NCBI RefSeq assembly: GCF_003367705.1
Contig: NZ_CP031425.1
Location: 558,001-622,000, forward strand
DNA from: Microbacterium foliorum
GTDB taxonomy: Bacteria > Actinomycetota > Actinomycetes > Actinomycetales > Microbacteriaceae
Reading direction: 5' to 3'
Length of the DNA: 64,000 nucleotides
Below, piece by piece: positions 24,109 to 58,635 of this stretch (its first letter is position 1; the number at the start of each line of letters is the position of its first letter). Both the position numbers and the translations under genes were made by a program. The notes beneath the pieces are model-generated. The model made no database searches and was not told where the DNA came from. It worked only from the letters and a program-made list of their open reading frames with translations.

Positions 24109-24570
24109 TCAGCGCGTCGCGAGCACGGGCGTGCCACCGACCGTGGCGCCCGCCGAGATCGCATCGAGCGCGCGCCGCAACGACGAGCTCGACGTGTGCG
24201 CGGTGTACGGGAAGTAGACGACCTCGACACCCACCTCGGCGAAGTCGCGCTCGAGGCGCAGGCCCTTCTCGGTGCCGCGCCAGTCGTCTCCCTTGAAGAA
24301 GTGCGTGAACCCCACGTCGTGCCAGGAGTCCATCTTCGACGGAGTCGTCTCGACGTACACGTCGTCGACGAACGAGATGTGGCGCACGATCTCCGCGCGC
24401 TCGGCCGTCGGGATGACGGGCTCGATGCCCTTCACCTGCCGCAGCATCTCATCGCTGACGACACCGGCGACGAGGACGTCGCAGTGCTGCTTCGCGTGAC
24501 GAAGAAGGTTGAGATGCCCGACGTGAAACAGGTCGAAAGCACCCACGGCATAGCCGATGCGCGTCCCCAT
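24109..24570 (-). CDS. TagD-like cytidylyltransferase (HxGH nucleotidyltransferase)
   Basis: A 153-aa protein of the nucleotidyltransferase superfamily. GAFDLFHVGHLNLL holds the HVGH motif at residues 16-19, and the SSSSLRRALDAI block stands where the family has RTxGIST-type residues. The closest familiar relatives are glycerol-3-phosphate cytidylyltransferases, which make CDP-glycerol for wall polymers. A CDP-alcohol phosphotransferase is encoded nearby at 28019, so the product could supply its substrate. Its start codon is at the foot of a hairpin with loop GGGG, so initiation may be regulated by RNA structure. It opens the polysaccharide locus. Confidence 0.85.
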   Translation of the reverse strand: MGTRIGYAVGAFDLFHVGHLNLLRHAKQHCDVLVAGVVSDEMLRQVKGIEPVIPTAERAEIVRHISFVDDVYVETTPSKMDSWHDVGFTHFFKGDDWRGTEKGLRLERDFAEVGVEVVYFPYTAHTSSSSLRRALDAISAGATVGGTPVLATR

Positions 24571-24615
24571 GATCTCCCCAGATCAGTAATTCCCCAGAAG
24601 CGGATCCCCATCCGC
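24570..24615 (-). promoter_or_regulatory. 5' leader with two GGGG-tetraloop hairpins before the nucleotidyltransferase gene
   Basis: Read on the minus strand, GCGGAT-GGGG-ATCCGC (24615-24600) and TGATCT-GGGG-AGATCA (24585-24570) are perfect 6-bp stems with GGGG loops. The last A of the second is the first base of the start codon. TGGGGA occurs at 24605, 24591, 24575 and 24564 (the last inside ATGGGGAC). A possible -10 is TACACT (24649-24644). Confidence 0.7.
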
Positions 24616-24742
24616 CAGCGACTCCCACAGCCGCACCGGAGCGAGTGTAGCAGGTCTCGGTTTCGCCCCGCACAGGAACCCGTGGAACGATGGACCCCGC
24701 AACGCGGGCCCCTCGGTCTGCACAGGGGGAAGGGAAAGGCTC

Positions 24743-25918
24743 GTGGCGACACCGGTCACGGTCATCGTGCCGACCTACAACGAGCGCGACAACGTCGCCG
24801 AGCTCGTCGCGCGCACCGCGACCGCGCTCGCCGCGTACGACGCGGAGATCCTGTTCGTCGACGACAGCGGCGACGACACCGCGTCCGAGATCGCCAGGGT
24901 CGCGGCCGACGCCCCGCTGCCCGTGCGCGTCATCCACCGTGAGCACAACACCGGCGGCCTCGGCGGGGCCGTGCTGGTCGGGCTCGAGGCCGCCGCCGCC
25001 GACCTCTGCATCGTCATGGACGGCGACCTGCAGCATCCGCCCGAGCTCCTCTCCGTGCTCCTGGAACGTCATGCGGAGGGCGACGCCGATGTCGTCGCCG
25101 CCTCGCGGTACGTGGGCGGCGGTGACACCAGCGGTCTCGGCACGGCGGTGCGCTTCGGCGTGTCGCGCGTGGCGACCTGGCTGACCCGAGCCATGTTCCC
25201 GATCCGTCTCGCTCGCAGCACCGATCCGATGACCGGGTTCTTCCTCGTCGATCGGAGCCGGCTCGACCTGGCGGCGCTCAAGCCGCAGGGATTCAAGATC
25301 CTCCTCGAGATCCTCGCGCGCACGGATCTGCGCATCGCCGAGGTGCCGATGGAGTTCGGCGAGCGCAGGCACGGCACGTCGAAGGCGAGCCTGCGCCAGG
25401 GCGGCACCTTCATCGCCCACCTCGCCAGACTGCGCTTCGGCAAGATGTCGCTGTTCGCTCTGATCGGTCTGATCGGCGCCATCGCGAACCTGGGCATCAT
25501 GTGGCTGCTGACCCTGACCGGGGTGCCCTACATCTGGGCGGCGATCATCGGCGCCGAAGTCACCATCATCGGCAATTTCCTGCTGCAGGAGCGCTTCGTC
25601 TTCGCCGACATGCGCACCGACGCGCGCGGCATCGGCGGTCGGTTCGCGGCCTCGTTCGCCTTCAACAACGCCGAGGCCGCTCTGCGCATCCCGGTGATGG
25701 CGCTGATGGTCGAGACCTGGCACATCTCCAGCGTGCTGGCCACGGGGCTGTCGCTCATCGTCGCCTTCGTCGCGAGGTTCCTCTTCCATTCCCTGGTCGT
25801 CTACGCGCCCCGGAGACCGCGCTCGACTGATGCCGACGCCGAGCCGAAGCCCGACACCGCGACGATCCGCATCATCCGCGCGATCGACTCCGAGGCGATG
25901 AAGCCGGGCGAGCTGTAG
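24743..25918 (+). CDS. Polyprenol-phosphate glycosyltransferase (GT2) with GtrA-like membrane domain
   Basis: A 391-aa fusion. Residues 1-about 225 are a GT2 catalytic domain (VIVPTYNERDNV at the start, the acidic DGDLQHP motif near 93, and FGERRHGTSKA), like dolichol-phosphate-mannose synthases. Residues about 232-355 form four membrane helices of a GtrA/DPMS type, ending with a charged cytoplasmic tail. Such enzymes transfer sugar from a nucleotide sugar to undecaprenyl phosphate for later outer-face glycosylation. GTG 24743 follows AGGGGGAAGGGAAAGG. It diverges from the nucleotidyltransferase gene and probably serves the same polysaccharide pathway. Confidence 0.9.
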   Translation: MATPVTVIVPTYNERDNVAELVARTATALAAYDAEILFVDDSGDDTASEIARVAADAPLPVRVIHREHNTGGLGGAVLVGLEAAAADLCIVMDGDLQHPPELLSVLLERHAEGDADVVAASRYVGGGDTSGLGTAVRFGVSRVATWLTRAMFPIRLARSTDPMTGFFLVDRSRLDLAALKPQGFKILLEILARTDLRIAEVPMEFGERRHGTSKASLRQGGTFIAHLARLRFGKMSLFALIGLIGAIANLGIMWLLTLTGVPYIWAAIIGAEVTIIGNFLLQERFVFADMRTDARGIGGRFAASFAFNNAEAALRIPVMALMVETWHISSVLATGLSLIVAFVARFLFHSLVVYAPRRPRSTDADAEPKPDTATIRIIRAIDSEAMKPGEL

Positions 25919-25939
25919 GCGATGCGCGCGTGCGCGCAG

Positions 25940-25958
25940 GCCCGCCATCCGGGCGGGC
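25940..25958. terminator. Candidate terminator between convergent genes
   Basis: GCCCGCC and GGCGGGC around a 5-base loop between two convergent glycosyltransferase genes; no T-run, so it is a candidate only. Confidence 0.5.
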
Positions 25959-25974
25959 GTCGCGAGCGGCTCGC

Positions 25975-26886
25975 CTAGCTCTTCTTCGGCCGGGCGTACT
26001 CGCCGCGCACGATGCCGAGGGCCGCCAGCATCCGACCCTGGGCGAACCACGCCCGGCGCTGGAAGACGGCGTTCGCTGCGGTGTCTCGTCGTAGGGCGGA
26101 GATCGCACGGCCGCCGGTGAACGCGACCCAGCGCACCGCGCCGCCGGCCAGGTGCGCGAGGTGGAGGAGCGGACGCCTCCACGCCGGTGCCTCGCGGATC
26201 AGCAGCCGCACACGGGCCTGTCCGTGCGCGATCGCTCGCCGGTGCACGAACACCCGTGTCGCGCGTTCCGGCGCGATGTCGTCGCGGGCCACGGAATCCG
26301 CGGATGCGACGATCGAGCCGCCCCGGGCGACGACCGTGCGGCCGAACACGTTGTCCTCGCCGCCGATCAGGCCGAGCGAGACGTCGAAACGCACCCCGAG
26401 AGCGCGAACCTGGGCGGTGTCGATGAGCACGTTGCCCGTCGCCAGCGACTCCAGCCGCTTTCCGTTCGGGAAGCGCGTGCGGCGCATGAAGCCTCCCGCG
26501 GCGATCCACGGATCGGTTCCCTCGGGCCACACGTAGCGCACGAAGCCCATCACGACGGCAGCGCGGGTCTCGCGCCAGACGGCGACCAGACCGTGCAGCC
26601 ACCCTTCTTCGGGGAACACGTCGTCGTCGATCATGACCGTGAGCTCCCCGTCGGACGCCGCGTCCAGCGCCGCCTGCCGGACGGCGGCGATGCCCGGTGT
26701 CTTCTCGGAGAGGTACTCGACCCCGAGGTCGGACGCGACGGACTCCGCCGATCTCCCGGGGTCGTTGTCGACGAGCAGGATGCGTGTGCGCACTCCCTCG
26801 GTCTGCGCGCGGATCGCCTCGACCAGAGGCGGCAGCAGGGCCGTGCGGCGATACGTCGGCACGGCGATCAGGACCGACTCGGTCAC
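25975..26886 (-). CDS. GT2 family glycosyltransferase
   Basis: A 303-aa GT-A-fold enzyme. It starts GTG 26886 (VTESVLIAVPTYRRTALLPP), overlapping the preceding gene's stop as GTGA, so it is coupled to it. The acidic metal-binding motif is IDDDVFPEEGWL, and the later LIGGEDNVFGRTV matches the GT2 ED-x-x-x-x region. The end is basic and lacks membrane helices, so it is cytoplasmic or peripheral. It likely adds one sugar to the lipid-linked repeat unit. Acceptor and donor cannot be predicted. Confidence 0.88.
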   Translation of the reverse strand: MTESVLIAVPTYRRTALLPPLVEAIRAQTEGVRTRILLVDNDPGRSAESVASDLGVEYLSEKTPGIAAVRQAALDAASDGELTVMIDDDVFPEEGWLHGLVAVWRETRAAVVMGFVRYVWPEGTDPWIAAGGFMRRTRFPNGKRLESLATGNVLIDTAQVRALGVRFDVSLGLIGGEDNVFGRTVVARGGSIVASADSVARDDIAPERATRVFVHRRAIAHGQARVRLLIREAPAWRRPLLHLAHLAGGAVRWVAFTGGRAISALRRDTAANAVFQRRAWFAQGRMLAALGIVRGEYARPKKS

Positions 26887-27926
26887 CGCGCCCCCGCCCG
26901 GCGGTGCGCGATGGCGCGCCGGAACGCGTCGCGGTGGGCGACTCCCGCACGGTCCCAGTCGCGCGCCGACAGATCGGGTTCTCCCTCGGGGAGAGTGCGG
27001 ATGGCCTCGGCGAACGCCAGGAGGTCCGAGTCGGCGAGTTCGTCGTCGAACATCGTGATCCAGCCGCGGCCGACCTCGGCCGACAGGGCGTCGTTCACGG
27101 CGGTGCGGGGAACCAGCACCGGGCGATTCAGCGACAGCGCCGCGAGCACGGTGCCGGAGTTGTGCATGAACCGGTACGGCAGCACGATGCCGGAGCTGCC
27201 CATGACGGCACGGGCGAAATCCGGCTCGGACAGGTAGCGCAGATCGAGCTCGATGCGGCCGTCTGCCTTCGCACTCTCCCGCACCTCGTCGGCGATCCCC
27301 GCGCTCGTCGGGTTGCCGGCGATGTGCAGTCGCAGGTCGGGGGCGACATCCGCCGTGTCCCGGAAGACGCGGATCAGGTCTTCGACGCCCTTGTAGCGCC
27401 GCACGAGGCCGACGAAACCGAGCGTTCCGGGAGCGGCATCCGTCTTCTCGACGTCCGCGAACCACTCACGGTAGTGGCCGTGCGGGATCAGAGTGGATTC
27501 CGCGCCCTCCGGCAGCTCCGTGAGGTCGTTGAGCACGATGCGGTGGTCGGTGCGCCGCTCCACCCACTCCAGGTATCGGCGCTGCCAGGGTGCCACGTCG
27601 TTCGGGAGCTCGACGTTGTGCACGGTGCGGATGATCGCGACGCGGCCCAGAGAGATGCGCGCGCGCAGCGCGACCGCGAATGCCCGGCGTGCAAGTGCCT
27701 TCGCACCCGTGCCCGCGCCGAACAGCGTCTCCGGCCAATGGAACTGGATGGCGTCCAGCCGACCGAACAGCGCCTGTCGCCGGTCGAAGCGCACATGCTC
27801 CACCCCCGGCGTCGCCGCGAGCGCGTCGTCGAGCATGTGCACGTACGGATTCGATGTGGGGCGCGGCGCCCCGAACGACTGCATGACCCTGATCGGGCGC
27901 GCAGAACCCCCTGATTTGTTCCCCAT
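26883..27926 (-). CDS. GT-B family glycosyltransferase
   Basis: A 347-aa GT4/GT1-like enzyme. Start ATG 27926 (MGNKSGGSARPIRV); an upstream in-frame ATG would overlap the divergent promoter. RPIRVMQSFGAPRPTSNPYVHM is the N-terminal Rossmann start, and the C-terminal donor-binding half has TLGFVGLVRRYKGVEDL and NSGTVLAALSLNRPVL, in place of the usual E-x7-E. It is the first gene of a two-gene leftward operon with the GT2 gene. The message may be leaderless. The start codon itself is part of a TGGGGA motif, but I saw no G-loop hairpin here. Confidence 0.85.
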   Translation of the reverse strand: MGNKSGGSARPIRVMQSFGAPRPTSNPYVHMLDDALAATPGVEHVRFDRRQALFGRLDAIQFHWPETLFGAGTGAKALARRAFAVALRARISLGRVAIIRTVHNVELPNDVAPWQRRYLEWVERRTDHRIVLNDLTELPEGAESTLIPHGHYREWFADVEKTDAAPGTLGFVGLVRRYKGVEDLIRVFRDTADVAPDLRLHIAGNPTSAGIADEVRESAKADGRIELDLRYLSEPDFARAVMGSSGIVLPYRFMHNSGTVLAALSLNRPVLVPRTAVNDALSAEVGRGWITMFDDELADSDLLAFAEAIRTLPEGEPDLSARDWDRAGVAHRDAFRRAIAHRRAGAR

Positions 27927-27953
27927 GGGTCCAGTGTGCCAGCAGTCGGGCTC

Positions 27954-28001
27954 TACACTGGTCGGGAACGACCTGGGCATGTGGGGTGCCCGAGAGGTCG
28001 T
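27954..28001 (+). promoter_or_regulatory. Promoter and stem-loop with loop TGTGGGG before the CDP-alcohol transferase gene
   Basis: A -10-like TACACT (27954-27959) precedes a leader whose outer stem is ACGACCT/AGGTCGT (27968-27974 and 27995-28001) and inner stem GGGCA/TGCCC (27975-27979 and 27987-27991), with loop TGTGGGG. GAG bulges on the 3' side. A ribosome-binding site AGGGGAG (28007-28013) follows. The -10 is part of a 7-bp inverted repeat (CCAGTGT/ACACTGG) shared with the divergent gene. Confidence 0.6.
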
Positions 28002-28018
28002 GACCTAGGGGAGTCGAC

Positions 28019-28753
28019 ATGTCCGTATCCTTCGCTGCCGCATATCGGCAGCTCTCAGCGGCGCAGAAGGGGCATGCGCGCGGAGCGCCCGGATACTCGG
28101 TCTACGTGAACCGTCGCATCGGGCGGATGCTCGCGGCCTTCGCCTTCCGCGTCGGCATCACGCCGAACCAGGCGACCGTGATCAGCGCCCTGCACACGTT
28201 CTCCGCCCTCGCGCTGCTGCTCATCCTTCCGGCGGCCTGGTGGACGGGGATCCTCGTCGCGCTGCTGCTCGCACTCGGCTACGCCTGGGATTCTGCCGAC
28301 GGTCAGATCGCGCGGCTGCGCGGCGGGGGCAGCCTCGCCGGAGAGTGGCTGGACCACTTCGTCGACGCCCTCAAGATCGCCTCGCTGCATCTCGTCGTCC
28401 TGCTCGCCCTGCACCTGCACACGCCGTTGGCCGGCACGCCGTGGCTGCTCATCCCTCTCGCCTTCTCGGTCGTCGACGTCGTGACCTTCTTCGGCATGCT
28501 GCTCAACGACCTGCTGAAGCAGAAGAAGGGCGTGCAGTCGACGCACTCCCGCGGAGGCGGGACCTTCCTCCGGTCGATGATCCTGCTGCCGACGGACTTC
28601 GGCGTGCTGTGCCTCGTGTTCGCCCTCTGGGGGTGGACCGCCGGCTTCCTCGCCGTCTACGCGGTGCTCGCCCTGATCAACGCACTCTTCCTCGCGCTCG
28701 CCGCGGCGAAGTGGTTCCGTGAGATCAGCGCCCTCGACCGCGAGGTCGGCTGA
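28019..28753 (+). CDS. CDP-alcohol phosphatidyltransferase family enzyme
   Basis: A 244-aa integral membrane enzyme with about six helices. The complete CDP-alcohol phosphotransferase signature is present: D91-x2-D94-G95-x2-A98-R99-x8-G108-x3-D112-x3-D116, in AWDSADGQIARL through EWLDHFVD. These enzymes displace CMP from a CDP-alcohol, making phosphodiester-linked lipids or polymers; the partner alcohol is unknown. Its location among glycosyltransferases and near the TagD-like gene suggests it builds or decorates a cell-envelope polymer rather than a bulk phospholipid. The next gene starts 4 bp after its stop. Confidence 0.9.
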   Translation: MSVSFAAAYRQLSAAQKGHARGAPGYSVYVNRRIGRMLAAFAFRVGITPNQATVISALHTFSALALLLILPAAWWTGILVALLLALGYAWDSADGQIARLRGGGSLAGEWLDHFVDALKIASLHLVVLLALHLHTPLAGTPWLLIPLAFSVVDVVTFFGMLLNDLLKQKKGVQSTHSRGGGTFLRSMILLPTDFGVLCLVFALWGWTAGFLAVYAVLALINALFLALAAAKWFREISALDREVG

Positions 28754-28757
28754 GATC

Positions 28758-30289: not shown

Positions 30290-30309
30290 CCGTCGAGTTC
30301 GAGTGTGAC

Positions 30310-30381: not shown

Positions 30382-30433
30382 GCGATTCGTGGGGAATCGC
30401 ATTCTGGGGAAAAACTGGGGGAACCTTTGGGGA
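30382..30433 (+). promoter_or_regulatory. Leader with CGTGGGG-loop hairpin and four TGGGGA repeats
   Basis: GCGATT and AATCGC (30382-30387, 30395-30400) enclose the loop CGTGGGG. TGGGG(G)A copies begin at 30390, 30405, 30416 and 30428. The element lies 57-80 bp before ATG 30457 and helps choose that start over the earlier in-frame ATG 30361. Confidence 0.6.
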
Positions 30434-30456: not shown

Positions 30457-33400
30457 ATGACGTCACCGCCGTCAGGCGGGATCACACCGTCGGGGGGTAC
30501 CGAGAGCAAGAGCTCGGGACGGAAGCGGTCCGGACTCGCGTTTCTCATCGGCGTCGTCCTGGCGTCCTCCGCCATCGTCGCGTTCCCTGCATCCGGGTCC
30601 GCTGCCGTCCCTCAGACGAAGGCGCCCCTGTTGGAGCGCACTTCCGATGTCGTGACCTCCGATCCGTTGCCCACCGTGCAGATCGACAGCGGGTACGTCT
30701 GGTCGCAGGCCACCGTCGGCACGACCGTCTATGCCGGTGGCAGCTTCTCGAATGCCCGCGCGGCTCTCGCCGATCCGGGAACGAACCTGACGCCGCGAAG
30801 CAACATCCTGGCGTTCGACATCACCACCGGCGCCCTGCTGCCGTTCGCGCCGCAGGTGAACGGCCTCATCAAGGCGGTCGCGGCCTCTCCTGACGGCAGT
30901 CGGATCTACATCGGCGGCACGTTCACACAGGTCAATGGAGCATCGCGCCACAACTTCGCCGCGCTCGATGCGCGCACCGGCGCACTCGTGCCCGGCTTCG
31001 CTCCTGCCGTCGGCGGCACCGGCGTCTACGCTGTCGCGGCGACGGCCGACGCCGTCTACGTCGGCGGTCTCTTCACCCAGGCCAACACGGTGGCTCGCAA
31101 GAACTTCGCGGCCTTCTCGACCAAGAACGGGGCGCTGCTTCCCTGGGCGCCCACCAGCGACCGGCAGGTCGACTCGATGATCGTCGAGCCCGGTGCCGCG
31201 CGCGTGATCGCCGGTGGGCGGTTCGACAGCGTCAACGGCGCGATTCAGCGAGGCCTCGTCGCGTTGGATCCGGTCAGCGGAGGCACGGACGCCTCCTGGG
31301 CGGCGCCGAAGACCGTGAAGAACTCCACACCCGCGGCGGTGAACCGCAACGGCTACTCCGGCATCTTCGGTCTCACGGCCGATGCCACCGCGGTATACGG
31401 CACGGGATGGTCGATGGGCGATACGGCAGCGACCCGTGGCAACCTCGAAGGCGCATTCGCTGCAGAGGTGGGCAGCGGCGCGATCCGCTGGGTCGCCGAC
31501 TGCCACGGAGACAGCTACGGGGTCTACTCCACCGGAAAGACGGTGTACACGACCAATCACACCCACACGTGCGAGAGCGCCAACCTCTGGCCCGAGCAGA
31601 AGCAGCGCACCTGGCGCTACTTCTCCGCTTTCACCGCCACGGCGGAAGGAACGCTCGCTTCGAGTCAGTTCACCAACGGCACGTACAGCGACTGGGGTGG
31701 AACGCCGTCGCCCTCGGCCTACGCCGTCACGCCTGACTTCGCTGTCGGCACGGCGACCGGTCTCGGCCAGGCCGGGCTCTCGATCACCGGTTCCGGCGAC
31801 TTCATCGCCGTCGCCGGGGAATTCACGAGCGTCAACAACAGGCGCTTCCAGGGGATCGTGCGCTTCTCGACGAAGCCGGACGGCGGCGCAGCGCAGGGCC
31901 CCTATCGGAAGGACGCCGCCTGGGCGACGCCCCAGGTGGCATCGGATGTCCCCGTGCGCGTGACGATCGAGACGAACTGGGATCGGGACAATCGCGACCT
32001 CACGTATCAGCTGATGCGTAGCGACCAGACGCAGCCCGTGTCGCAGACCGTCGCCACCTCGCTCTGGTGGGACAAGGGCACGGTGACGTTGGAAGACCCG
32101 ACCGCGGTGGCGGGAGCGACGTACACCTACACGGTGAAAGCGGTGGACGCCGACGGCAACTCCGCCGTGAGCCTGCCCGTGAACACGACGGCCTCGGGAG
32201 CCGACATCGCCGGTTATTCGAAGGTCGTGCGGCGAGACGGCGCGGATGCGTACTTCCCGCTCGGCAATGCCAGGACCGACTACGTCAGCGCCGGCGCCCT
32301 CAACGTCGGGCCGGGTGTCACGGTGACCGCCTCCGGTGCGGTGGGGGGAGCGACACCCGCAGGATCGGTCTTCAACGGGACGCCGGACGGGCGCGTCTCC
32401 TCCGCCGCGGCGGTGGCTCTCGACGACAACTTCTCGGCAGAGGTCTGGTTCAAGACGACCACTCGTCAGGGCGGGAAGATCTTCGGGGCCGGTTCGTCGC
32501 AGACGGGGAGCTCCGCCAGCAACGACCGTGATCTCTACATGCAGAACGACGGGCGGCTGCGGTTCGGCGTGTATCCGTACGCGGGGAGCCCCGTCAGGTC
32601 TGTCGCCACCACCTCGGCGTACAACGACGGTCAATGGCATCATGTCGTCGCGACCATGAGTCCCCGGGGGACGACGATCTACGTCGATGGCAAAGCCGCG
32701 GCAGCGGACGAATCCATGACGGCGGCGCAGAAGAGCTACAACGGCTTCTGGCGTCTCGGCTGGGACGGACGCCTCTCTTCCTGGCCCTCAGCCCCCGCGT
32801 CCGACGCGTTCTCGGGCAGCATCGATGAGTTCGCCGCGTACCCCTCGGCGCTTAATGCCGATCAGGTCATGCGGCACTACGCCGCGGGCAAGGGGTACAA
32901 GGCTCCGGTCGCGTCGTGGTCGACATCGAGCCCCGGTCCGGATATGACCTTCACCGGGGAGGCGACCTTCGTGGACGCCGGGCAGAAGATCGTCAGCGCC
33001 GCGTGGGACTTCGGTGACGGCTCGACAGGGACCGGGCTGCCGACGGCCACGCACACCTACACCGCAGCCGGGACCTATACCGTGACCCTCACGGTGACCG
33101 ACAGTCGAGGACTCACCGGAACCGTGAAGAAGCAGGCTGTCGTCACGGCACCCAACGTCGCTCCCGTGGCGGACTTCGCGTCGTCGGTCTCCGAGCTGAC
33201 CGCGTCGGTCGACGCCGCCGGATCGACGGATGCCGACGGCACGATCGCGGCGTATTCGTGGGAGTGGGGCGACGGCACGGCGGCAGGGAGCGGAGCAGCG
33301 GCGACGCACACCTACGCGGCGGCCGGTACCTATCGGATCACGCTCACCATCACGGATGACCGCGGTGGCGCTGCGACGAAGGCCGCCGATGTGACGGTGG

Positions 33401-34099: not shown

Positions 34100-34201
34100 T
34101 CGACAAGCGACGGCAAGGTCGAGTAGAGTGCCCCTGTGCGGCTTGGGAAGCCGCATTTCAGGCGACTTCAGGGGATGTCGCTTTTTTGGGGAAACTGGGG
34201 A
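34100..34201 (+). promoter_or_regulatory. Promoter and attenuator-like leader with G-loop hairpins and a T6 terminator
   Basis: A -35 TCGACA (34100-34105), 18-bp spacer and -10 TAGAGT (34124-34129) are followed by a hairpin TGCGGCTT-GGG-AAGCCGCA (34137-34155). Next comes GCGAC/GTCGC (34162-34166, 34177-34181) around a loop containing AGGGGA, with TTTTTT directly after it (34182-34187), the shape of an intrinsic terminator. TGGGGA repeats at 34187 and 34196 lead to GTG 34205. Read-through past this terminator would be needed to express the lipoprotein and surface protein B. Confidence 0.6.
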
Positions 34202-34204: not shown

Positions 34205-34831
34205 GTGAACCTTCATTGGTGCGCGCGTCGAGATGGACATTCGGCGCTGTCAAAAACTCTCGGGGGAGCCGTCGTCATCGCGACGATGCTCACCCTCGCC
34301 GCCTGCGCGCCTGCCGAGTCGGGCAGTGCCGCGGCGTCGCCATCGCCCGCACCGTCGCCGAGTGCGACTCAGATTCTGCCGCCCGACGCGACCGCTGCGC
34401 CGGATGCCGGAGAGGGTCCGCAGACTGCGGCGCCGCTTCCGACGCAGGAGGCGACGATCGGTGAGGCCGTCGCCTTCGACACGGGCATCTCCGTGAAGAT
34501 CGAGAAGGTGGAGGTCATCGACGTCGAGGCGCAGACGCCGGGCGAGGTCTCCGGATCCGCCGTGGTCGTCACGGTGGCGGCCGACAACGGCACCGCCGAC
34601 ACGCAGAGCCTCGACTCGGCCGTCGTCACCCTCGACGCGCAAGACGGCGAGGTCGGCATCGGAACCACTGCCGGCGACCCTGCTCCCTTGGCCGGTTCGC
34701 TCGAGCCGGGAAAGAGCGCCACCGGACGCTACGTCTTCATGCTCGGATCAGCCGCAGGCCGTGACGTGTCGGTGTCGGTCAACTACGCGGCAGGCGAACC
34801 CGTCGCGATCTTCACCGGGAAGATCTCCTGA
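34205..34831 (+). CDS. Small lipoprotein coupled to surface protein B (208 aa)
   Basis: GTG 34205 is preceded at four bases by GGGGA and is the last in-frame start before the signal sequence. The N-terminus VNLHWCARRDGHSAL is followed by a hydrophobic segment ending in the lipobox LAAC, so the mature protein begins with a lipidated Cys. A Pro/Ser/Ala linker precedes a beta-rich domain (about 90-208) without a family I recognise. Its stop overlaps the start of surface protein B as TGATG, so translation is coupled. The first 15 residues resemble the leader ORF before surface protein C. Perhaps it anchors protein B; this is inference. Confidence 0.8.
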   Translation: MNLHWCARRDGHSALSKTLGGAVVIATMLTLAACAPAESGSAAASPSPAPSPSATQILPPDATAAPDAGEGPQTAAPLPTQEATIGEAVAFDTGISVKIEKVEVIDVEAQTPGEVSGSAVVVTVAADNGTADTQSLDSAVVTLDAQDGEVGIGTTAGDPAPLAGSLEPGKSATGRYVFMLGSAAGRDVSVSVNYAAGEPVAIFTGKIS

Positions 34832-39609: not shown

Positions 39610-39690
39610 TCGACGCAGCGCGTGGGGAGAGGTAGTATATTGCTGCGGCCACTGGGGGAGTGATCGCAGTATTGGGGAACTGGGGATCAC
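39610..39690 (+). promoter_or_regulatory. Promoter and GGGGG-loop leader before surface protein C
   Basis: TCGACG (39610-39615), 17 bp, then -10 TAGTAT (39633-39638). The leader folds as CTGCG/CGCAG (39643-39647, 39665-39669) around CACT-GGGGG-AGTG (39650-39662). TGGGG(G)A repeats begin at 39623, 39653, 39673 and 39681. The last is five bases before GTG 39691. Confidence 0.6.
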
Positions 39691-39828
39691 GTGAACAGTC
39701 ATCGGTGCATGCGTCGAGAAAGCATCTCGGCGCAGCCTGCAATCTCTGCGTCTGGCCTTTCCGCCACAGCCTCCGTCAGTCATGCCGTCGGGGAGTCCGC
39801 GGCAGCAAACTTTGGAAAGGTCACCTGA
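39691..39828 (+). CDS. 45-codon leader ORF coupled to surface protein C
   Basis: GTG 39691 (after CTGGGGATCAC) opens a reading frame VNSHRCMRRESISAQPAISA and on to GNFGKVT-like ANFGKVT, stopping at TGA 39826-39828, which overlaps the ATG of surface protein C as TGATG. Its first residues, VN-x-H-x-C-x-R-R, match the start of the lipoprotein before protein B (VNLHWCARRDG), and the DNA is conserved over about 40 bases. It may be a regulatory leader peptide, or a remnant of a former lipoprotein gene whose coupling role is kept. It has no recognisable domain. Confidence 0.5.
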   Translation: MNSHRCMRRESISAQPAISASGLSATASVSHAVGESAAANFGKVT

Positions 39829-48471: not shown

Positions 48472-49544
48472 AGCGACTGCTTCAGGCCGGCCACCAGGGG
48501 CTCGAGCAGAGCGCGACCCTTGTCGCGTGCGTCCTCTGCGCCGCTGCGCAGGTCGGGTGCCGCGGCGTGCGCGAGAACCTGGCCCGCCCAGTCGCCGCTC
48601 TCGGTGATCGAGACGACCCTGGTCCATCCGACGGCATCCATCAGCGGTGCGAACTTGCGGGAGTAGGCCATGGCGATCGCGGGGGTGCCGGTCGAGAGCG
48701 CATTGAGGCACGCGTGCATGCGCGCCCCGATCACGAGCGCGCTCGCCGCGATGATCGACCGCGCATCCTCGAGGTCGGCGGGGACGACCAGGTCGACCCG
48801 TGCGTCGTACTCGTCGGCGAGGTCGCGGCTCACGGGCACGTCGTTGTCGTGGCTCTGCGAGTCGAGCACGTGCGGGAAGATCGTGACCGACCGGCCCGAC
48901 GTCAGCAGCTCGTCGATGATGCGGCGGATTGCTTCGCGGTAGCGGGCGGCGTCGACATGCGGATTCTCGTTCCAGAGCAGACCGGACACGTTCAGCAGCA
49001 CGTCGCGCTTCACCGTCGAGGGCGTCGGCTGGTCGATGCCGAACACGAGGTCGCTCGTGACGGCGGCGACCGGACGTCCCAACTCGGCCGAGGCTGTCGC
49101 ACTGACGATGTCGCGGGCGAAGACCAGGCTGCTGCGACGCAGGTTGCGTCGGGCCAGCGCGCGTCCGCGGCGGGTGTGGAACGGGCCGATCGTCTGCGGT
49201 GCCATGACGGAGGGGACCCCCGCCTGGGTCGCGAACTCGTGCAGCAGCGACATCGTAGTGTGTCGTGTGAGGCCGTAGATGTCGGCGAAGCTGTCGCCCG
49301 AGCGGGTGTCCCAGACGAGATCGAAGCCGCTGAGCCAGCGCTGCATACCGAGACGACCGGTGACCCGCTCGCGCACCAGGGCGCGCGGAGTCCACGGGAC
49401 CTCCGGCTGCCGTCGGCCGTAGTTGAGATAGGTGAATTCCGCATCGGGCCAGACCGATCTGACCAGGTCTTCGGAACCGCGCGCGAGCGCGCGGACCCCG
49501 AGATTGACGCTGGAATCGTTCGCCCAAGCAATGAGAACGCGCAC
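48468..49544 (-). CDS. Polysaccharide pyruvyl transferase family protein
   Basis: A 358-aa enzyme of the CsaB/WcaK family. GTG 49544 (VRVLIAWANDSSVNLGVRAL) is preceded by GAGGGGG. The N-terminal strand and the late ALVIGARMHACLNALSTGTP block, with HACLNAL, are diagnostic of the family; PQTIGPF and FPHVLDSQSHDND occupy the middle. It transfers a pyruvyl group from phosphoenolpyruvate to a sugar, adding negative charge to an exopolysaccharide. It leads a three-gene leftward operon with the F420-beta-like protein and the flippase. An eight-codon leader ORF lies in its 5' region. Confidence 0.9.
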   Translation of the reverse strand: MRVLIAWANDSSVNLGVRALARGSEDLVRSVWPDAEFTYLNYGRRQPEVPWTPRALVRERVTGRLGMQRWLSGFDLVWDTRSGDSFADIYGLTRHTTMSLLHEFATQAGVPSVMAPQTIGPFHTRRGRALARRNLRRSSLVFARDIVSATASAELGRPVAAVTSDLVFGIDQPTPSTVKRDVLLNVSGLLWNENPHVDAARYREAIRRIIDELLTSGRSVTIFPHVLDSQSHDNDVPVSRDLADEYDARVDLVVPADLEDARSIIAASALVIGARMHACLNALSTGTPAIAMAYSRKFAPLMDAVGWTRVVSITESGDWAGQVLAHAAAPDLRSGAEDARDKGRALLEPLVAGLKQSL

Positions 49545-49596: not shown

Positions 49597-49623
49597 TCAG
49601 ACGCGGTCCAGATGACCGCACAT
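49597..49623 (-). CDS. Eight-codon leader ORF before the pyruvyltransferase operon
   Basis: The ORF reads MCGHLDRV and stops, starting at 49623. Its ATG is the 3' side of a GGGG-loop hairpin (49621-49634). It is very short and may be coincidence, but it has the same layout as the longer leaders at 39691 and 58494: TGGGGA, start, a Cys and a His, then the gene. Confidence 0.3.
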   Translation of the reverse strand: MCGHLDRV

Positions 49624-49681
49624 CTCCCCAGATGAATGCCCAGCGCGTCGTTCGAGGATACGGCTGAGCAGCCTCATCCTA
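49621..49681 (-). promoter_or_regulatory. Promoter and GGGG-loop hairpin of the pyruvyltransferase operon
   Basis: On the minus strand a -10 TAGGAT (49681-49676) with a -35-like TGAGCA (49704-49699) is followed by CATCT-GGGG-AGATG (49634-49621), a perfect 5-bp stem. Its last three bases are the leader-ORF ATG. Confidence 0.55.
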
Positions 49682-49725: not shown

Positions 49726-49780
49726 TACCATGAGAGCGCGCCGCGTTCGATCGGCGATGTCGTCACGCGGGGAGGCGACG
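49726..49780 (+). promoter_or_regulatory. Promoter and imperfect G-loop hairpin before the Wzc-like gene
   Basis: TACCAT (49726-49731) is a possible -10. The hairpin CGT-ca-CGC/GCG-ACG (49761-49780) has loop GGGGAG, but a two-base bulge makes it weaker than the others. Confidence 0.35.
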
Positions 49781-49805
49781 CTTGCCGGCACTGGAGGGGG
49801 CACGG

Positions 49806-51185: not shown

Positions 51186-51213
51186 TACTCTGATCTGCGG
51201 ATGGGGGCATCCG
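51186..51213 (+). promoter_or_regulatory. Promoter and GGGG-loop hairpin before the beta-helix protein
   Basis: TACTCT (51186-51191) is the -10; the predicted start is close to 51198, where CGGATG-GGGG-CATCCG (51198-51213) begins. The stem is perfect, 6 bp. The -35 is weak. Confidence 0.6.
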
Positions 51214-51257
51214 TTCTCGCGATGGGTGTGTCTTGTTGCATACAGAACGGCTCATAC

Positions 51258-54200
51258 GTGACTCCCATCCCATTCAGACTCCTCGGTGATCGCGCCTCGC
51301 GCGGATTCCTCGCCTTCCTCGTCGTGCTCAGCGCTCTCGCAGCGATGCTGACGGGTGTGTCCCGCGCCGATGCGGACACCGACGCGATCCTCACGGACAC
51401 CATGGATCGCACATCGGCATCCGGGTGGGGAGCGCCGCCGGTCGGCGGTGCCTACGCTTCGTCGCCCTCGGCAGTGACGAGCGTGACCGACGGAGCGGCA
51501 GCTCTGGCGGCACCGGGACCGGGACGCACGGCGAAGGTGAGCTGGAACGGCGCCCAGACCGGCGATGTCGATCTGGTCACGACGGCATCGGTGCCCGATC
51601 TCCCCGCCTCGAGCGGTGTGTACCTGAGCACCCACGTGCGCGAGACCGGCGACCGATCGTATGCTGCACGACTCAGGCTTCTCGGCGACGGCCGCACGGA
51701 TCTCGAGCTGGTCTCCTTCACCGGGTTCACGGCCACCGTGCTCTCAGCGCAGGGCGTCGACCTCGGTGCGGCCGTCGGCAGCGGGTTCTCCGTGGAGGTC
51801 GTGGCTGTCGGATCGGATCCGGTTCAGCTGCGAGCCCGCGTGTGGGCAACAGGGGAGACCCGCCCGGACTGGCAGGTGAAGGCGTCGGACGCGGGAGCGG
51901 AGCGCATCACCAGAGCGGGCGGCCTGGCGTGGAGCGCGTATGCCTCCACGGGCGGTTCCGTCGCCCCCGTCCTGATCGAGGACGTGTCGGCGACGCCCGG
52001 CGTGCTCTCTGAGGAGAACCCGACCCAGGCGTGCGCCGACGGTGACATCGCCTGCGATCAGTTCGATCGCAGCACCGACACCGTCTGGGGCGCTGCCGAT
52101 CGGGGTGGGGCGTGGACAGGATCCGGCGCCGCCGTGCTCACGGTCGACGGATCCGCGGGCGTCATCTCCAGTCCTGCGGCCGGACGATCCTCGACCGCTG
52201 TGCTGGCAGCGGCCGTGCCCGCCGACGCCCGTGTGACCACGGACATCGGGATCCGCACTCTGCCGACGGCGGGCTCGGGCATCTACCTGAGCATCGCGAC
52301 CCGTGTCGTGGGCGACTCCTCCTATGCCGTGCGGCTGAGGGTCATGCCCGACGGAGTGTCCGAGCTCCAGCTGGTTCGGCTCAAGAATCTGACGAGCGCC
52401 GACATCCTCGGTTCCGTCCGTCTGGCGAGCACGGTCGACGCCGGAGACGAGGTGCGCATCGCCTTCGAGACCACGGGGACGAAGACCGTGGCACTCGCCG
52501 CCAAGCTCTGGGAGCCCAGTGGCACGGAGCCTGCGGAGTGGACCGTCTCTGCGACCGACGCGTCGAAGGAGCGCATCGCAGACGCAGGACGCATCGGTGT
52601 GGCCCTGTATTCGGCGAACGGCGGTAACACGCCGCAGGTCGCGATCGAGGCGATCGCCGCCCGCGCCGCACAAGCCCCCGAGGAGCCGACCGAGCCGACC
52701 GAGCCGACGGAGCCGACGGAGCCGACGGAGCCGACGGAGCCGACGGAGCCGACGGAGCCGACCGAGCCGACCGAGCCGACCGAGCCGACGGTCCCGAACC
52801 CGGATCAGGAGTTCCCGCGCGGCGGTGCCGGCGCTGCAGCACCCGGATCCTTCTCGTACTCCGCACCGACGACCGCGGTGCACGTCGCCCGCACGGGGTC
52901 GGACGCCGCCGGCGGCACGGCCGCTCAGCCGGTGCAGACCATCACTGCGGCGCTGCGCAAGGTGCCCAGCGGCGGAACCATCGTCGTCCACGAGGGGTCG
53001 TACCACGAGGAGATCGTGGTGCCGCCCCAGAAGCGCGTCACGATCCAGCCGGCTCCCGGCGACGAGGTCTGGCTCGACGGCGCCGAGGCCGTGACCGGCT
53101 GGCGCGCAGAAGCGGGCGTGTGGGTCAAGGACGGGTGGAATCTCGCGCTGGACTCGAGCCCCACGTACACGAAGGGCGCGTCCGACGGCGGATCCGCGGG
53201 CTGGCAGTTCGTGAACCCCGAGTTCCCGATGGCCGCCCACCCCGATCAGCTCTGGGTCGGCGGCGTGCAGCTCACCGAGGTCGCGCGACGGGATCAGGTC
53301 ACGCCCAACACGTTCTATGTCGACGGCTCCCGGTCGCAGCTGGTCATGGGGTCGGACCCGTCCGGCAAGTCCGTGGAAGCCAGCACGTTGACGCAGGCGC
53401 TCTCGATCCGTTCGGCGGGATCGGTGCTCCAGGGCATCGGCGTACGCCGCTACGCCACGAGCGTCCCGCAGATGGGCACGGTCGTGGTGGCGGCCCCCGA
53501 CGTCACCGTCGCTGACGTCACGGTGCGTGACAACTCGACCACAGGTCTGTATTCCTGGGCTCTGCGGACGACGTTCACCCGTGTCTCGGTGATCGACAAC
53601 GGCCTGCTCGGCGCGGGCGCGTCGACAGCAGACGGTCTCCGGGTGAGCCATCTGTTGTCGACGGGCAACAACGCCCAGCGGTTCAACCGCGCTCCGGTCT
53701 CCGGCGCGTTCAAGGTGACCAGATCGCGCGATGTCGAGGTGAAAGACAGTGCGTTCCTCGACAACCTGGGCCAGGGGCCGTGGTTCGACGAGTCCGTCTA
53801 CGACATCACCTTCACCGGAAACGATGTGGTCGGCAACACCGGCAACGGACTCGTTCTCGAGCTTTCCGAGAAGGCGATCATCGCCGACAACATCGTGTCC
53901 GACAACGCTCTGAACGGCATCTACGTCATCGGAACCGGCAACGTCCAGATCTGGAACAACACCGCGGTCGGCAATCAGCGGAACATCGCGATCGTGCAGG
54001 ACAAACGTCGAGCGTCGGACAAGAGCGCGGCAGGACATGATCCGCGCCAGCAGCTCCCGGACCCCACCATGCCATGGGTCACACGCAAGACCGTGATCGT
54101 CAACAACGTCATCGGCGATGCGGTCGGCAACTGCCTGATCTGTGTGGAGGACTTCTCGAAGGAGTTCACCGGGGCGCAGCTCGTGTCCCGCAGTGACGGC

Positions 54201-54515: not shown

Positions 54516-54530
54516 GTTCGGGTGCCCTCG

Positions 54531-54573: not shown

Positions 54574-54609
54574 TGCCGGCGGGTGCTGCCGAGCCGTGAT
54601 GCTCTTGTG

Positions 54610-55746: not shown

Positions 55747-56906
55747 TCCTCCGCCTGGCGGCGCGCCCGTCGCGCGATGCGGTGCACGCTGTCTCCGGCG
55801 GCGAGCCGTCGGGCGAGGTCTTCATAGGCATCGGCGACGTCGTCCCACCGGAACGCCACGCGTGCACGCTCCTGGCCACGACGGCCGGATTCGCGTGCAG
55901 CCGCGGCATCTTCCTCCGCGGTCTCGAACGCGGTGGTGACGTCGGCCGGAGTCGAGAAGAACCACCCGTTCCCGTCGAGCACCTCGCGGTTGAACGGCAC
56001 GTCGAAGGCGATGACTGCGGTGCCTGCGCCCATCGCGCGCAGCAACGAGGGGTTCGTGCCGCCGACCGAGTGGCCGTGATCGTAGGTGAGAGCGTGGAAG
56101 TACAGCGCGTCGAGCAGTTCCTGGTCGTACACGCCACCGACGAGGCGGATGCGCTCGTCTCCCGCCGCTGCGTGGTGGATCCGCTGCGTGTAGTCGCTGC
56201 TGTAGGGGGCGGATCCGACGACGACGAGCGGACGCGTCGCGCTGCTCCGGCGGTACCCCTCGACGATCTCGAGCACATGGTTCTCGGGCTCGAATCGCGC
56301 GACGACCAGGTGATAGCCCTCAGGCTTCAGACCGAGCTCCTCGATGCGACCGTCGGCGACGTCGTCGAGGATGGGCGCGCCGTAGCGGATCATCTCTGTC
56401 GGCACCTGGAACTGGTGCGAGTAGTAGTCGGCGATGCCCGGGGCGTCGGCGATGAGCGCGTCGCCCATCCGCACCCCGAACTGCTCCGCCCAGCGGTAGT
56501 ACGCCTTGCCGCGTGGGCCCCATTTGGATCGACGCCATTCCAGACCGTCCATATGCAGCGCGGTCGGCACGCGACGCAGCCGCAGCAAGGGCAGGAATGG
56601 CGAGTTCGCCGCATTGAACACGAACGCCGCATCAGGACGGCGGCGCACCATCAGGTGCAGCGTCGAGAGTCCGGTGTGGCTCAGCGTCTCGACCTGCTTC
56701 ACCGGCACGGCGGGCAGATGCACCACCCGCATGCCGAGGTGCTCGGTGGCGCGGCTCTCGGAGCCGCGTGTGTACACGACCACGTCGTGACCGCGCTCTG
56801 CGAGCCGCCTGCCCACCTCCTCGACTGCCGTCTCGAATCCGCCATAGGCTGCGGGCACCCCCCGTGTCCCCACCATCGCAATGGTGAGGGCGTTCCCCTT
56901 GTTCAT
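55740..56906 (-). CDS. DUF1972/GT4 glycosyltransferase (rhamnosyltransferase-like)
   Basis: A 388-aa enzyme beginning ATG 56906 (MNKGNALTIAMVGTRGVPAA). MVGTRGVPAAYGGFETAVEE is the signature of the DUF1972 family, which includes capsular rhamnosyltransferases acting as second enzyme after the initiating glucosyltransferase. It lies 5 bp after the wcaJ-like stop, in agreement with that order. The end overlaps the next GT4 gene. Assigning rhamnose is by family similarity only. Confidence 0.88.
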   Translation of the reverse strand: MNKGNALTIAMVGTRGVPAAYGGFETAVEEVGRRLAERGHDVVVYTRGSESRATEHLGMRVVHLPAVPVKQVETLSHTGLSTLHLMVRRRPDAAFVFNAANSPFLPLLRLRRVPTALHMDGLEWRRSKWGPRGKAYYRWAEQFGVRMGDALIADAPGIADYYSHQFQVPTEMIRYGAPILDDVADGRIEELGLKPEGYHLVVARFEPENHVLEIVEGYRRSSATRPLVVVGSAPYSSDYTQRIHHAAAGDERIRLVGGVYDQELLDALYFHALTYDHGHSVGGTNPSLLRAMGAGTAVIAFDVPFNREVLDGNGWFFSTPADVTTAFETAEEDAAAARESGRRGQERARVAFRWDDVADAYEDLARRLAAGDSVHRIARRARRQAEEW

Positions 56907-56911
56907 ACTTT

Positions 56912-58444
56912 TCAGTATGCCCCGCTGGGCTGCACCATGACCTTGGCTGTGCGCCACATGATCTGCAGGTCGTTCATGACCGACCAGTTCTCGACATAGC
57001 GCAGGTCGAGGCGAACGCTCTCGTCCCACGAGAGGTCACTGCGGCCGGAGACCTGCCACAGTCCGGTGATGCCCGGCTTGATGTACAGGCGGCGGAAGAC
57101 GGTGCCGTCGTACGAGGTGACCTCCGAAGGCAGCGGAGGACGCGGGCCGACGACGCTCATGTCTCCGATGAGGACGTTCCAGAACTGCGGCAGCTCGTCG
57201 AGCGACAGCTTGCGCAGGATCCGACCGACGCGGGTCACGCGAGGGTCGTCCTTCATCTTGAACAGCAGTCCGGCGCCCTGGTTCTGCTCCTTGAGGACAC
57301 TGAGCTGCTGCTCGGCGTCGGTCTTCATCGAGCGGAACTTCATGATCCTGAACGTCCGCCCGTCGCGCCCCACGCGCTCCTGAGAGAAGAACAGGGGACC
57401 CGGCGAGTCGAGCTTCACGAGCACGGCGAGCACGGGGGTGATCAGCGCGATCGGGATCAGCGCGACGGCAGCGACGAAGATGTCGAGTGCGCGCTTGAGC
57501 ACGTGGACACCGCCCTCGTACGTCGGGATCTTCACCTGGATGAGCGGCAGCCCGTCGACCTGACGCAGCGAGACACGCGGTCCTGCGACGTCGGTCAGGC
57601 GACTGGAGAGCACGAGCTCCGCAGCGGTGCCCTCGAGCTGCCAGCTCAGGTGCTTGACGAATTCGGGGTCCCCCTCGGGGCGGCTCGCCACGATGATGGT
57701 GTCCGCCCCGAGTTCCACCGCCGCCCCAGCGACGGTGTTCAGGTTGCCCACGCTCGGGTAGGTGCTCTCCCCGAGCGTCAACGTGCCGGCTTCGCGATCG
57801 AACAGCGTCGTCCCCACGACGTTGTACCCGTTCTCTCCACCCTTCTGGAGAGAGTTGATCACGTACTCGACATCGTCTACCGCGCCGACGACCAGGGTCC
57901 TCGATGCGTACTCGCCGCGCAGACGGCGGTGCTGCAGCCAGCGACGCCAGCTCCACCGTCCGAACAGCAGTCCCAGCGTGCCCACCGGGAGAGCGATGAA
58001 GAACAGCGGCTGCAGTCCTTCCAGCTCCAGGAGAACGCCGAGGATCGCGATCGCGCCGAAGGCCAGGCCTGCGGCATGAGCGACACGGCGGTACTCGGTC
58101 GCACCGGATCCGAGGATCGTGCCCGCCCTGGTGCCCAGCGCGGACAGCGCGACGATCCACGCCAACGACAGCAGCAGACCGTTGCGCAGGGCCTCTTCCC
58201 CCATCACGCCGGTCAGCAGCTGCACTGCGGCGGTCGCTCCCACGGCGAGCAGGATGACGCTGGCATCCGTGACGCCCAGGCGTCGCCGGTAGCGTCGCTC
58301 CCACTGCCTGCGTCGCTCCAGCGTGGCCGACACGCGTGGCGTGACGACGGTCTGGATGACGGATCTCGTCGCCCGCGGCGCGGCGACCGGTGTGAAGACC
58401 GAACCCGTGCGCGTGATGCTCATCGCATCCTCGACGGAGGTCAT
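56912..58444 (-). CDS. Undecaprenyl-phosphate sugar-1-phosphate transferase (WcaJ/CpsE-type)
   Basis: A 510-aa initiating enzyme. I chose ATG 58444 because it overlaps the stop of a 17-codon leader ORF (ATGA); a longer frame upstream covers the structured leader. The N-terminal half has about five membrane helices and a Rossmann-like domain (VVGAVDDVEYVINSL). The C-terminal half (about 320-510) is the bacterial sugar-transferase domain: KRALDIFVAAVALIPIALI, FFSQERVGRDGRTFRIMKFR, DELPQFWNVLIGDMSVVGPR, and GITGLWQVSGRSD. It attaches the first sugar phosphate to the lipid carrier. It heads an operon with two glycosyltransferases and a 200-base structured leader. Confidence 0.93.
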   Translation of the reverse strand: MTSVEDAMSITRTGSVFTPVAAPRATRSVIQTVVTPRVSATLERRRQWERRYRRRLGVTDASVILLAVGATAAVQLLTGVMGEEALRNGLLLSLAWIVALSALGTRAGTILGSGATEYRRVAHAAGLAFGAIAILGVLLELEGLQPLFFIALPVGTLGLLFGRWSWRRWLQHRRLRGEYASRTLVVGAVDDVEYVINSLQKGGENGYNVVGTTLFDREAGTLTLGESTYPSVGNLNTVAGAAVELGADTIIVASRPEGDPEFVKHLSWQLEGTAAELVLSSRLTDVAGPRVSLRQVDGLPLIQVKIPTYEGGVHVLKRALDIFVAAVALIPIALITPVLAVLVKLDSPGPLFFSQERVGRDGRTFRIMKFRSMKTDAEQQLSVLKEQNQGAGLLFKMKDDPRVTRVGRILRKLSLDELPQFWNVLIGDMSVVGPRPPLPSEVTSYDGTVFRRLYIKPGITGLWQVSGRSDLSWDESVRLDLRYVENWSVMNDLQIMWRTAKVMVQPSGAY

Positions 58445-58494
58445 ACTCGTGCCTCGTGCGTCACGAATGTACGCAGAATTCCGCAGTGCAACAT
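58441..58494 (-). CDS. 17-codon leader ORF overlapping the wcaJ-like start
   Basis: ATG 58494 (after TCTGGGGATTAC) opens MLHCGILRTFVTHEARV, and its TGA (58443-58441) overlaps ATG 58444 of the transferase as ATGA. Translational coupling is therefore likely. Like the leaders at 39691 and 49623 it has His and Cys near the start. It is too short for a domain and may be a regulatory leader peptide. Confidence 0.5.
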   Translation of the reverse strand: MLHCGILRTFVTHEARV

Positions 58495-58635
58495 GTAATC
58501 CCCAGATTTTCCCCAGACCACGGACCCCACGTCCATGGTGATTGTCCGCATACCCGACCCCTCGGGTCCTGCTGCACTCGTGATCCCACATCACGGGTTG
58601 CACTCACCGTCCCACACGGTGGTTCTGGCAGCAGG
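58495..58635 (-). promoter_or_regulatory. Structured leader RNA with four G-loop hairpins and a long-range stem
   Basis: Minus-strand elements in order: CCTGCTGC (58635-58628, pairs with GCAGCAGG at 58575-58568); CACCGT-GTGGG-ACGGTG (58621-58605); CGTGAT-GTGGG-ATCACG (58595-58579); then, directly after the long-range stem, ACCCGA-GGGG-TCGGGT (58567-58552); and arms CCATGGAC and GTCCGTGG around loop GTGGG (58538-58518). TGGGGA repeats at 58515-58510 and 58504-58499 precede the leader ATG 58494. The one mismatch in the fourth hairpin is a G-U pair only in the minus-strand RNA, which supports an RNA role. Confidence 0.7.

Follow-up and report, generated by a model that had tools for sequence, protein, structure and literature searches.

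The question raised by the polysaccharide locus of Microbacterium foliorum is what reads a set of G-rich hairpin loops and repeats that recur in the 5' leaders of eight of its genes. The locus lies in a 64,000-nucleotide stretch of the 3.57-Mb genome (C1:558001-622000, hereafter the window; coordinates without the prefix C1 count from its first letter), for which an earlier note had listed hairpins closed by such loops and proposed that a protein or small RNA recognising exposed G-loops in trans could coordinate the expression of polysaccharide and surface-protein genes. The listed hairpins were found where they had been placed or a few bases off, on the sense strand of the downstream gene. 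The idea of a trans-acting reader is supported and the proposal as a whole partly so: judging from complementary sequence, the leaders are likely to be the targets of a trans-acting small RNA (sRNA) regulon special to Microbacterium, with two elements termed RNA A and RNA B as partners. The new part is this putative partner, two sRNA-like elements that are specific to Microbacterium and whose loops match.

The G-loop hairpins are a real and unusual regulatory motif. When both strands were scanned for a GTGGG pentaloop on a stem of at least 6 bp with at most one G-U pair, the window held six, all six in leaders, against a mean of 0.18 and a maximum of 1 in 60 dinucleotide shuffles of the window. 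Such hairpins number 6 in the 34-kb locus versus 2 in 740 kb (37 stretches) sampled from the same genome. The loop is invariant among the six, and the six stems differ in sequence. TGGGGA hairpins with at least 4 further pairs number 5 in the window (shuffle mean 0.4, maximum 2), and the locus holds as many as the 740 kb (5 versus 5); two of the five sit within coding sequence (43013, plus strand, and 57806, minus strand). The enrichment over shuffled sequence on which the earlier claim had been staked is present for these two kinds of hairpin, but not for the plain GGGG loops that had been placed in the same family, since on stems of at least 5 bp these have no significance against shuffles (8 versus 4.3, maximum 9). 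TGGGGA/TCCCCA is also the top hexamer for over-represented close pairs in the locus (8 observed, 0.115 expected), with the unrelated AGCCGA/TCGGCT almost as extreme (11 observed, 0.438 expected). Genome-wide there are 17 close TGGGGA pairs, 8 of which fall in five leaders of the locus, and 3 pairs of a reversed control pattern. A covariance model (R1) built on nothing but the GTGGG hairpin proved too small, giving 5 matches at E <= 10 in the whole genome, three of them its own training hairpins (three of six were missed) and two in coding-like sequence. The TGGGGA pairs L009, L020, L022 and L024 outside the locus were not leader-like on reading and were set aside; L019 and L023 were set aside as ambiguous.

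Conservation was followed in the leader of the priming glycosyltransferase gene (56912..58444, minus strand), which encodes an exopolysaccharide polyprenyl glycosylphosphotransferase (PF02397; TIGR03025 above cut-off). By alignment, pair counts and fold, this leader (58492..58645, minus strand, as are all its parts) is a conserved multi-hairpin RNA in Microbacterium, composed of a closing helix (GTCTGC/GCGGAC), a helix CCTGCTG/CAGCAGG, four G-loop hairpins, two TGGGGA repeats and the ATG of an upstream open reading frame (ORF). The hairpins CACCGT-GTGGG-ACGGTG (58605..58621) and CGTGAT-GTGGG-ATCACG (58579..58595) are both conserved in relatives, ACCCGA-GGGG-TCGGGT (58552..58567) has an A before its loop and is nearly invariant in relatives, and the stem of the hairpin around GGAC-GTGGG-GTCC (58517..58539) covaries strongly among them. 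The two TGGGGA repeats, TGGGGAAAATCTGGGGA (58499..58515), stand directly 5' of the start of the upstream ORF, which spans 17 aa (58441..58494) and whose stop overlaps the glycosyltransferase ATG (ATGA) at 58444; a similar upstream-ORF start is present in the leaders of relatives. The leader at 39828 likewise ends in a short ORF, and because in both cases the short-ORF stop overlaps the main start codon, translational coupling is suggested for the two.

The glycosyltransferase has relatives in 47 loci (38 named Microbacterium, 59-85% identity), 35 of which were aligned with the window in the 36 rows of alignment A4. One truncated locus (L036), three with different leaders (L057-L059) and eight from outside Microbacterium (L061, L063, L064, L066, L067, L068, L070, L071) were dropped. 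The common layout consists of the closing helix, a second helix around two GTGGG hairpins, the GGGG hairpin and a further, last hairpin, which is GTGGG-looped in most rows and is followed by two CTGGGGA repeats and the short-ORF ATG; rows L039, L043 and L054 keep the last stem and have lost its G-loop. Pairing is found in 96.4% of 1288 cells, with changes on both sides at 14 of 38 pairs. The share of paired cells, the numbers of both-side changes and the covariation score are reached by none of 500 shuffles, the number of pair types by 2. With the register shifted by 1-3 columns pairing is at most 42%, a comparison in which the true register is favoured by the structure having been drawn on the window's row. 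In nine distinct rows an extra A within the 3' arm of hairpin 4 is wrongly aligned, which leaves that helix with 82.9% paired cells. The stems therefore covary in homologues, as the earlier claim demanded. The minimum-free-energy fold of the window's leader recovers the A4 helices (z -2.99, with 2 of 200 shuffles folding equally well), and 56 G-U versus 8 A-C cells in paired columns give a strand signal. At gathering scores the window has no match in Rfam, and the leader loci L026 and L030 have none at E <= 1.

A compact multi-helix RNA of this kind could act in cis only, for instance by attenuation, with any match to sRNA loops a coincidence, and the second hairpin of the leader at 34205, which is followed by six T, would suit such a device. 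That similar loops stand on different stems in the leaders of eight genes and in those of other species, and that the leader co-occurs with the sRNAs, makes a purely cis-acting role very improbable. The G-runs had also been read as possible RNA quadruplexes that set translation, and several leaders do have three or four tracts of at least 3 G within about 70 nt. However, the covarying stems enclose single loops, the flanking U and A recur, and the hairpin regions of the leaders at 49544 and 51258 have few G-tracts; a quadruplex leaves the T before the G-run, the covarying stems and the existence of RNAs with complementary loops unexplained, so that this reading is hardly credible.

These complementary RNAs lie outside the window. 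RNA A (C1:77401-77533, plus strand) was found via L010, a TGGGGA pair outside the locus that is the opposite strand of a structured element, and is defined by its BLAST family, an alignment and a covariance model (143.9 bits); RNA B (C1:3041209-3041344, minus strand) is a paralogue of the same architecture that the RNA A model matches with 54.3 bits. RNA A has 29 long BLAST matches in 149 congeneric genomes, its own included, and 28 of them entered alignment A2 (L103 was left out). It consists of a closing helix and three hairpins, the third long and terminator-like, with 98.4% of cells paired and 13 of 43 pairs changed on both sides, values that 0 of 500 shuffles reach, and its strand is clear from 137 G-U versus 4 A-C cells in paired columns. 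CCCCA is present at loops 1, 2 and 3 in 28, 26 and 27 of the 28 sequences, and the longer UCCCCAG in 18, 20 and 0, respectively. Both RNAs fold into CCCC-loop hairpins, loop 3 of RNA B holding two CCCC tracts. Both are putative transcripts. By eye, a conserved promoter-like TATGGT box stands 5' of RNA A with a second conserved box about 17-18 nt before it, and conserved promoter-like boxes likewise stand 5' of RNA B. In Rfam, the neighbouring cspA is the sole family matched by the RNA A locus at E <= 1, and none of the open-access papers among the matches listed deals with Microbacterium sRNAs or with a UCCCC/GGGGA loop pair. Two further hairpins lie near RNA A: one formed by TTTGTCCCCC/GGGGGACAAA is directly 3' of it and present in many relatives, and a 6C-like hairpin (28.3 bits; C1:77615-77675, plus strand; L002:1501-1561) lies between RNA A and a cold-shock-protein-like gene.

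The sRNA loop UCCCCAG, which is frequent, and the leader repeat CUGGGGA are perfect reverse complements of each other, so that the loop complementary to leaders near start codons that is expected of a trans-acting sRNA with C-rich loops is found here in both sequence and duplex energies. A T precedes 18 of the 23 runs of four or five G in the eight leaders versus 84 of 463 elsewhere in the window (Fisher p 2e-9), which fits the A after the sRNA C-run. Computed duplexes of RNA A loops 1-2 with UGGGGA sites range from -13.8 to -18.7 kcal/mol (the fragments include a few stem bases), and loop 3 of RNA B best fits the tandem repeats before start codons, with -21.9 to -26.6 kcal/mol in three leaders.

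A C-rich-loop sRNA is already known from Actinobacteria in the form of 6C/B11 (RF01066), which is reported to act in trans, to have one of its loops in a terminator hairpin and to be aimed at guanine tracts near ribosome-binding sites (PMC12395582, PMC10470900). B11 reportedly targets lipooligosaccharide genes in M. marinum, its C-rich terminator loop binding guanine tracts beside their ribosome-binding sites and impeding translation (PMC12395582), and it is also reported to repress an ESX-4 gene with a tract of six G in the 5' UTR (PMC10470900). The partner of the leaders might thus be the 6C RNA itself, its CCCCCC loops pairing with any leader G-run, the more so as the genome encodes one just under the gathering score (C1:2667533-2667605, minus strand; L001:1501-1573; 43.7 bits against 47) and as 6C/B11 regulates lipooligosaccharide genes in M. 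marinum. The 6C duplex is stronger than those of RNA A and RNA B at GAGGGGUC and at the ribosome-binding region of 28019, and equals that of RNA A loops 1-2 at the 39673 site. At the six other computed UGGGGA sites, however, RNA A loops 1-2 pair more strongly than the better 6C loop by about 3-8 kcal/mol, and the T before 18 of 23 leader G-runs has no partner in a C6 loop and would go unexplained; 6C as sole partner is disfavoured by this flank and by most duplex energies, and we regard it as quite improbable. Nor are RNA A and RNA B members of that family in disguise: the RNA A locus (L075) has no 6C match at E <= 1, RNA B is not among the genome's three 6C matches at E <= 1, and instead of two hairpins with loops of about six C, RNA A has three CCCCA loops. 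The pair further differs in comprising two paralogues with a closing helix, in targets that show the complementary sequence in conserved hairpins and repeats, and in sharing its genome with a separate 6C locus. RNA A and RNA B would work like 6C/B11, but by the tests made here they are a separate family. The suggestion of a small RNA with C-rich loops, for which 6C had served as the example, is thus favoured as to the kind of partner, but a dedicated sRNA pair takes the place of 6C. As to the genome's own 6C RNA, it has C6 loops and a TACACT promoter-like box.

The reader could instead be an RNA-binding protein, with CsrA as the obvious candidate, that recognises UGGG(G) loops and repeats through GGA and blocks translation. 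CsrA is encoded in the genome (C1:1951252-1951404, minus strand; L255; 73.7 bits). As in CsrA targets, the UGGGGA repeats provide several GGA sites per leader, one near the start codon, and in the glycosyltransferase leader the GUGGG loops show strong conservation despite poor pairing with the sRNAs. Against this, a CsrA regulon would have GGA in every binding loop, whereas it is missing from the conserved glycosyltransferase-leader loops GAGGGGUC and those of the CGUGGGGUU/CGUGGGGUC type (CGUGGGGUU/C) as well as from the 27975 loop. The csrA gene adjoins a flagellar gene that we take to be FlhA-like, and a protein reader leaves two conserved RNAs with complementary loops unexplained. The protein option of the earlier note is therefore not needed, and despite the csrA gene it appears improbable.

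That leaders and RNAs belong together is further indicated by their distribution. Taking as RNA-positive each genome with at least one match of the RNA A covariance model at E <= 0.01 (the calibration of the model being rough), 85 of the 149 Microbacterium genomes are RNA-positive; all 37 leader-positive genomes are among these and none among the 64 RNA-negative ones (Fisher p 1e-11, kinship ignored). In a wider sample the RNA family occurs in 2 of 150 genomes of the bacterial family and in 1 of 85 genera. All 39 loci that come from Microbacterium or from one further member of the Microbacteriaceae have TGGGG at least 3 times 5' of the glycosyltransferase match, and in the 8 other loci it does not occur there at all. 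Close CTGGGGA pairs average 7.4 in leader-positive, 2.8 in RNA-positive leader-negative and 2.1 in RNA-negative genomes. The three Microbacterium loci with different leaders are instructive, as L057 (strain Root180), L058 (M. timonense) and L059 (M. rhizomatis) do not match the common structure, yet have TGGGG loops and repeats. M. rhizomatis has a weak model match (L240) in which two loops read UCCCCAG and the third has changed, and M. timonense a still weaker one (L241, E 0.12) with one clear CCCCA loop. Root180 is model-negative, but has a diverged element found by loop pattern only (L281), in which two hairpins with CCCCA loops are accompanied by a terminator-like one that has a GUCCCCAA loop and a T tail; in the leader of its nucleotidyltransferase gene, TGGGGA hairpins stand on other stems than at 24570. 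Between species, as far as these sequences indicate, stems change and loops stay, in leaders and RNAs alike.

Several observations weigh against a regulon read by RNA A and RNA B, beyond the three sites at which 6C pairs as well or better. Both sides carry a selection effect, since the leaders were picked for their G-runs and RNA A was first noticed through a TGGGGA-pair search on its opposite strand. The Fisher p for co-occurrence is overstated because the genomes are related, and in the eight loci outside Microbacterium the glycosyltransferase match begins at query residue 20-309, so that the stretch read may be coding sequence and not leader. The match between the two distributions is also incomplete: 48 RNA-positive genomes have no glycosyltransferase leader match, 13 have a strong RNA A (at least 60 bits) and no strong leader (at least 100 bits), and G041 and G108 have strong leaders with weak RNA matches only. 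The 2.8 versus 2.1 CTGGGGA pairs are a slight excess (p 0.03), in counts that include the strands opposite the sRNAs, and RNA-negative G017 has 13; moreover, model-negative genomes can hold diverged RNAs, because Root180 does. Homologues of the 28019 gene in 7 loci and of the 24570 gene in 3 non-Microbacterium loci have no such G-loop leader. As to pairing, GUGGGA loops offer only the 4 bp of UGGG/CCCA (the duplex at 58579 gives -7.1 to -8.5 kcal/mol), and at 58552 the base before the GGGG loop is A and the duplex energy is low. The pure GUGGG loops thus pair weakly with the sRNAs and are partly unexplained; they may be docking sites for weak multivalent contact or the target of something else. 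Finally, with loops near-invariant on both sides, intermolecular covariation is invisible.

With these points weighed, complementarity, co-occurrence and convergence in diverged species still argue that leaders and RNAs belong together, and the leader loops and repeats and the CCCCA-loop RNAs probably pair to control the cell surface. Under such a regulon, the CCCCA loops of RNA A and RNA B would pair with CUGGGGA repeats and U-GGGG leader loops, loop 3 of RNA B with its two CCCC tracts matching the tandem TGGGGA-n-CTGGGGA directly 5' of start codons, and the upstream leader hairpins would serve as docking loops. Since by eye the TGGGGA repeats stand a few bases 5' of several start codons with no better Shine-Dalgarno sequence seen, pairing at the repeats would hide the ribosome-binding region and lower translation. 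The priming glycosyltransferase would be lowered through its coupled upstream ORF, and other polysaccharide genes and large surface proteins likewise; that the effect would be repression and not activation is suggested by analogy with B11. A further step, for and against which the chances appear about even, is a multivalent loop-to-loop code in which two sRNAs with three near-identical CCCCA loops each read UGGG(G) arrays in many mRNAs. In each leader, the number of loops and the strength of stems would adjust a common response that covers capsule-type polysaccharide and giant surface proteins, with the loops fixed and the stems of both partners re-invented between species.

Other known RNA systems share parts of this design. 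In antisense RNAs that set plasmid copy number, loop-loop pairing joins complementary hairpin loops on both RNAs. The two partners proposed here present complementary hairpin loops in the same way, but would be trans-encoded and many-to-many, two three-loop sRNAs facing many leaders. The dual-hairpin RNAs targeted by ANTAR proteins follow a loop rule of a hexaloop with A at position 1 and G at position 4. They too are conserved-loop hairpins in actinobacterial mRNAs (PMC8164766), whereas the loops here are GUGGG or GGGG. If the regulon is real, a large and well-sampled genus would have an sRNA regulon whose target code is unusually easy to read, and a second case would join mycobacterial B11 among the sRNAs that control the actinobacterial surface through C-rich loops. 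Since the targets display a conserved loop, the members of the regulon might be identified by sequence, a task that is ordinarily difficult at high GC content (PMC12395582).

The genes behind the eight leaders are those of the priming glycosyltransferase, a nucleotidyltransferase-fold protein, a CDP-alcohol phosphatidyltransferase-like protein, a polysaccharide pyruvyl transferase-like protein, a beta-helix protein, and three large PKD/laminin-G proteins or their operons. The leader of the adenylyl/cytidylyltransferase-fold (nucleotidyltransferase; TIGR00125) gene (24570..24634, minus strand) had been credited with two hairpins and has three, at 24618-24634 (GTGGG), 24599-24616 (GGGG) and 24570-24585 (GGGG), with a free CTGGGGA at 24591. 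On the plus strand, GGGCAT-GTGGG-GTGCCC (27975..27991) lies 5' of the CDP-alcohol phosphatidyltransferase-like gene at 28019, and the leader of the PKD/laminin-G surface-protein gene at 30457 (30382..30433) has the hairpin GCGATTC-GTGGG-GAATCGC (30382-30400) followed by TGGGGA at 30405 and 30428. The leader at 34205 (34136..34201, plus strand) comprises a GGG-loop hairpin (34136-34156), the hairpin GCGAC-TTCAGGGGAT-GTCGC (34162-34181) followed by six T, and TGGGGA at 34187 and 34196. The short ORF 39691-39828, which overlaps the surface-protein ATG at 39828, has a leader (39650..39686, plus strand) with TGGGGA at 39673 and 39681, and its listed hairpin, CACT-GGGGG-AGTG, is present at 39650-39662, but with a stem of only 4 bp. 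The polysaccharide pyruvyl transferase gene (start 49544) has CATCT-GGGG-AGATG in its leader (49621..49634, minus strand), identical in two of the three relatives found and missing from the third (L057), and the beta-helix protein gene at 51258 has GGATG-GGGG-CATCC with flanking pairs (51197..51214, plus strand), kept in the sole relative found (L062).

Some minor observations concern these genes and similar sequences elsewhere. The TTCAGGGGAT hairpin with its six T (34162-34190, plus strand) is terminator-like, and attenuation in this leader is possible. The short ORF 39691-39828 (plus strand; MNSHRCMRRE) and the lipoprotein-like ORF 34205-34831 (plus strand; MNLHWCARRD) begin alike, as if duplicated, and both overlap the start of a large surface-protein gene. 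The leader of the Wzz/tyrosine-autokinase gene (49750-49785, plus strand) carries a CGGGGA version of the element, in place of which the relatives L062 and L046 have ATGGGGA and a GGGG hairpin, respectively. Outside the locus, L023 (C1:2779257-2779277, minus strand) combines TGGGGA repeats with the 8-bp hairpin ATGTCGAA-GGGG-TTCGACAT 5' of a ribosomal-protein-like gene, presumably that of S10. A further leader of the kind described here, L021 (C1:1315492-1315525, minus strand), is found directly 5' of the ATG of a small exported protein and contains the hairpins CTGTC-GTGGG-GACAG and TTCT-GGGG-AGAA.

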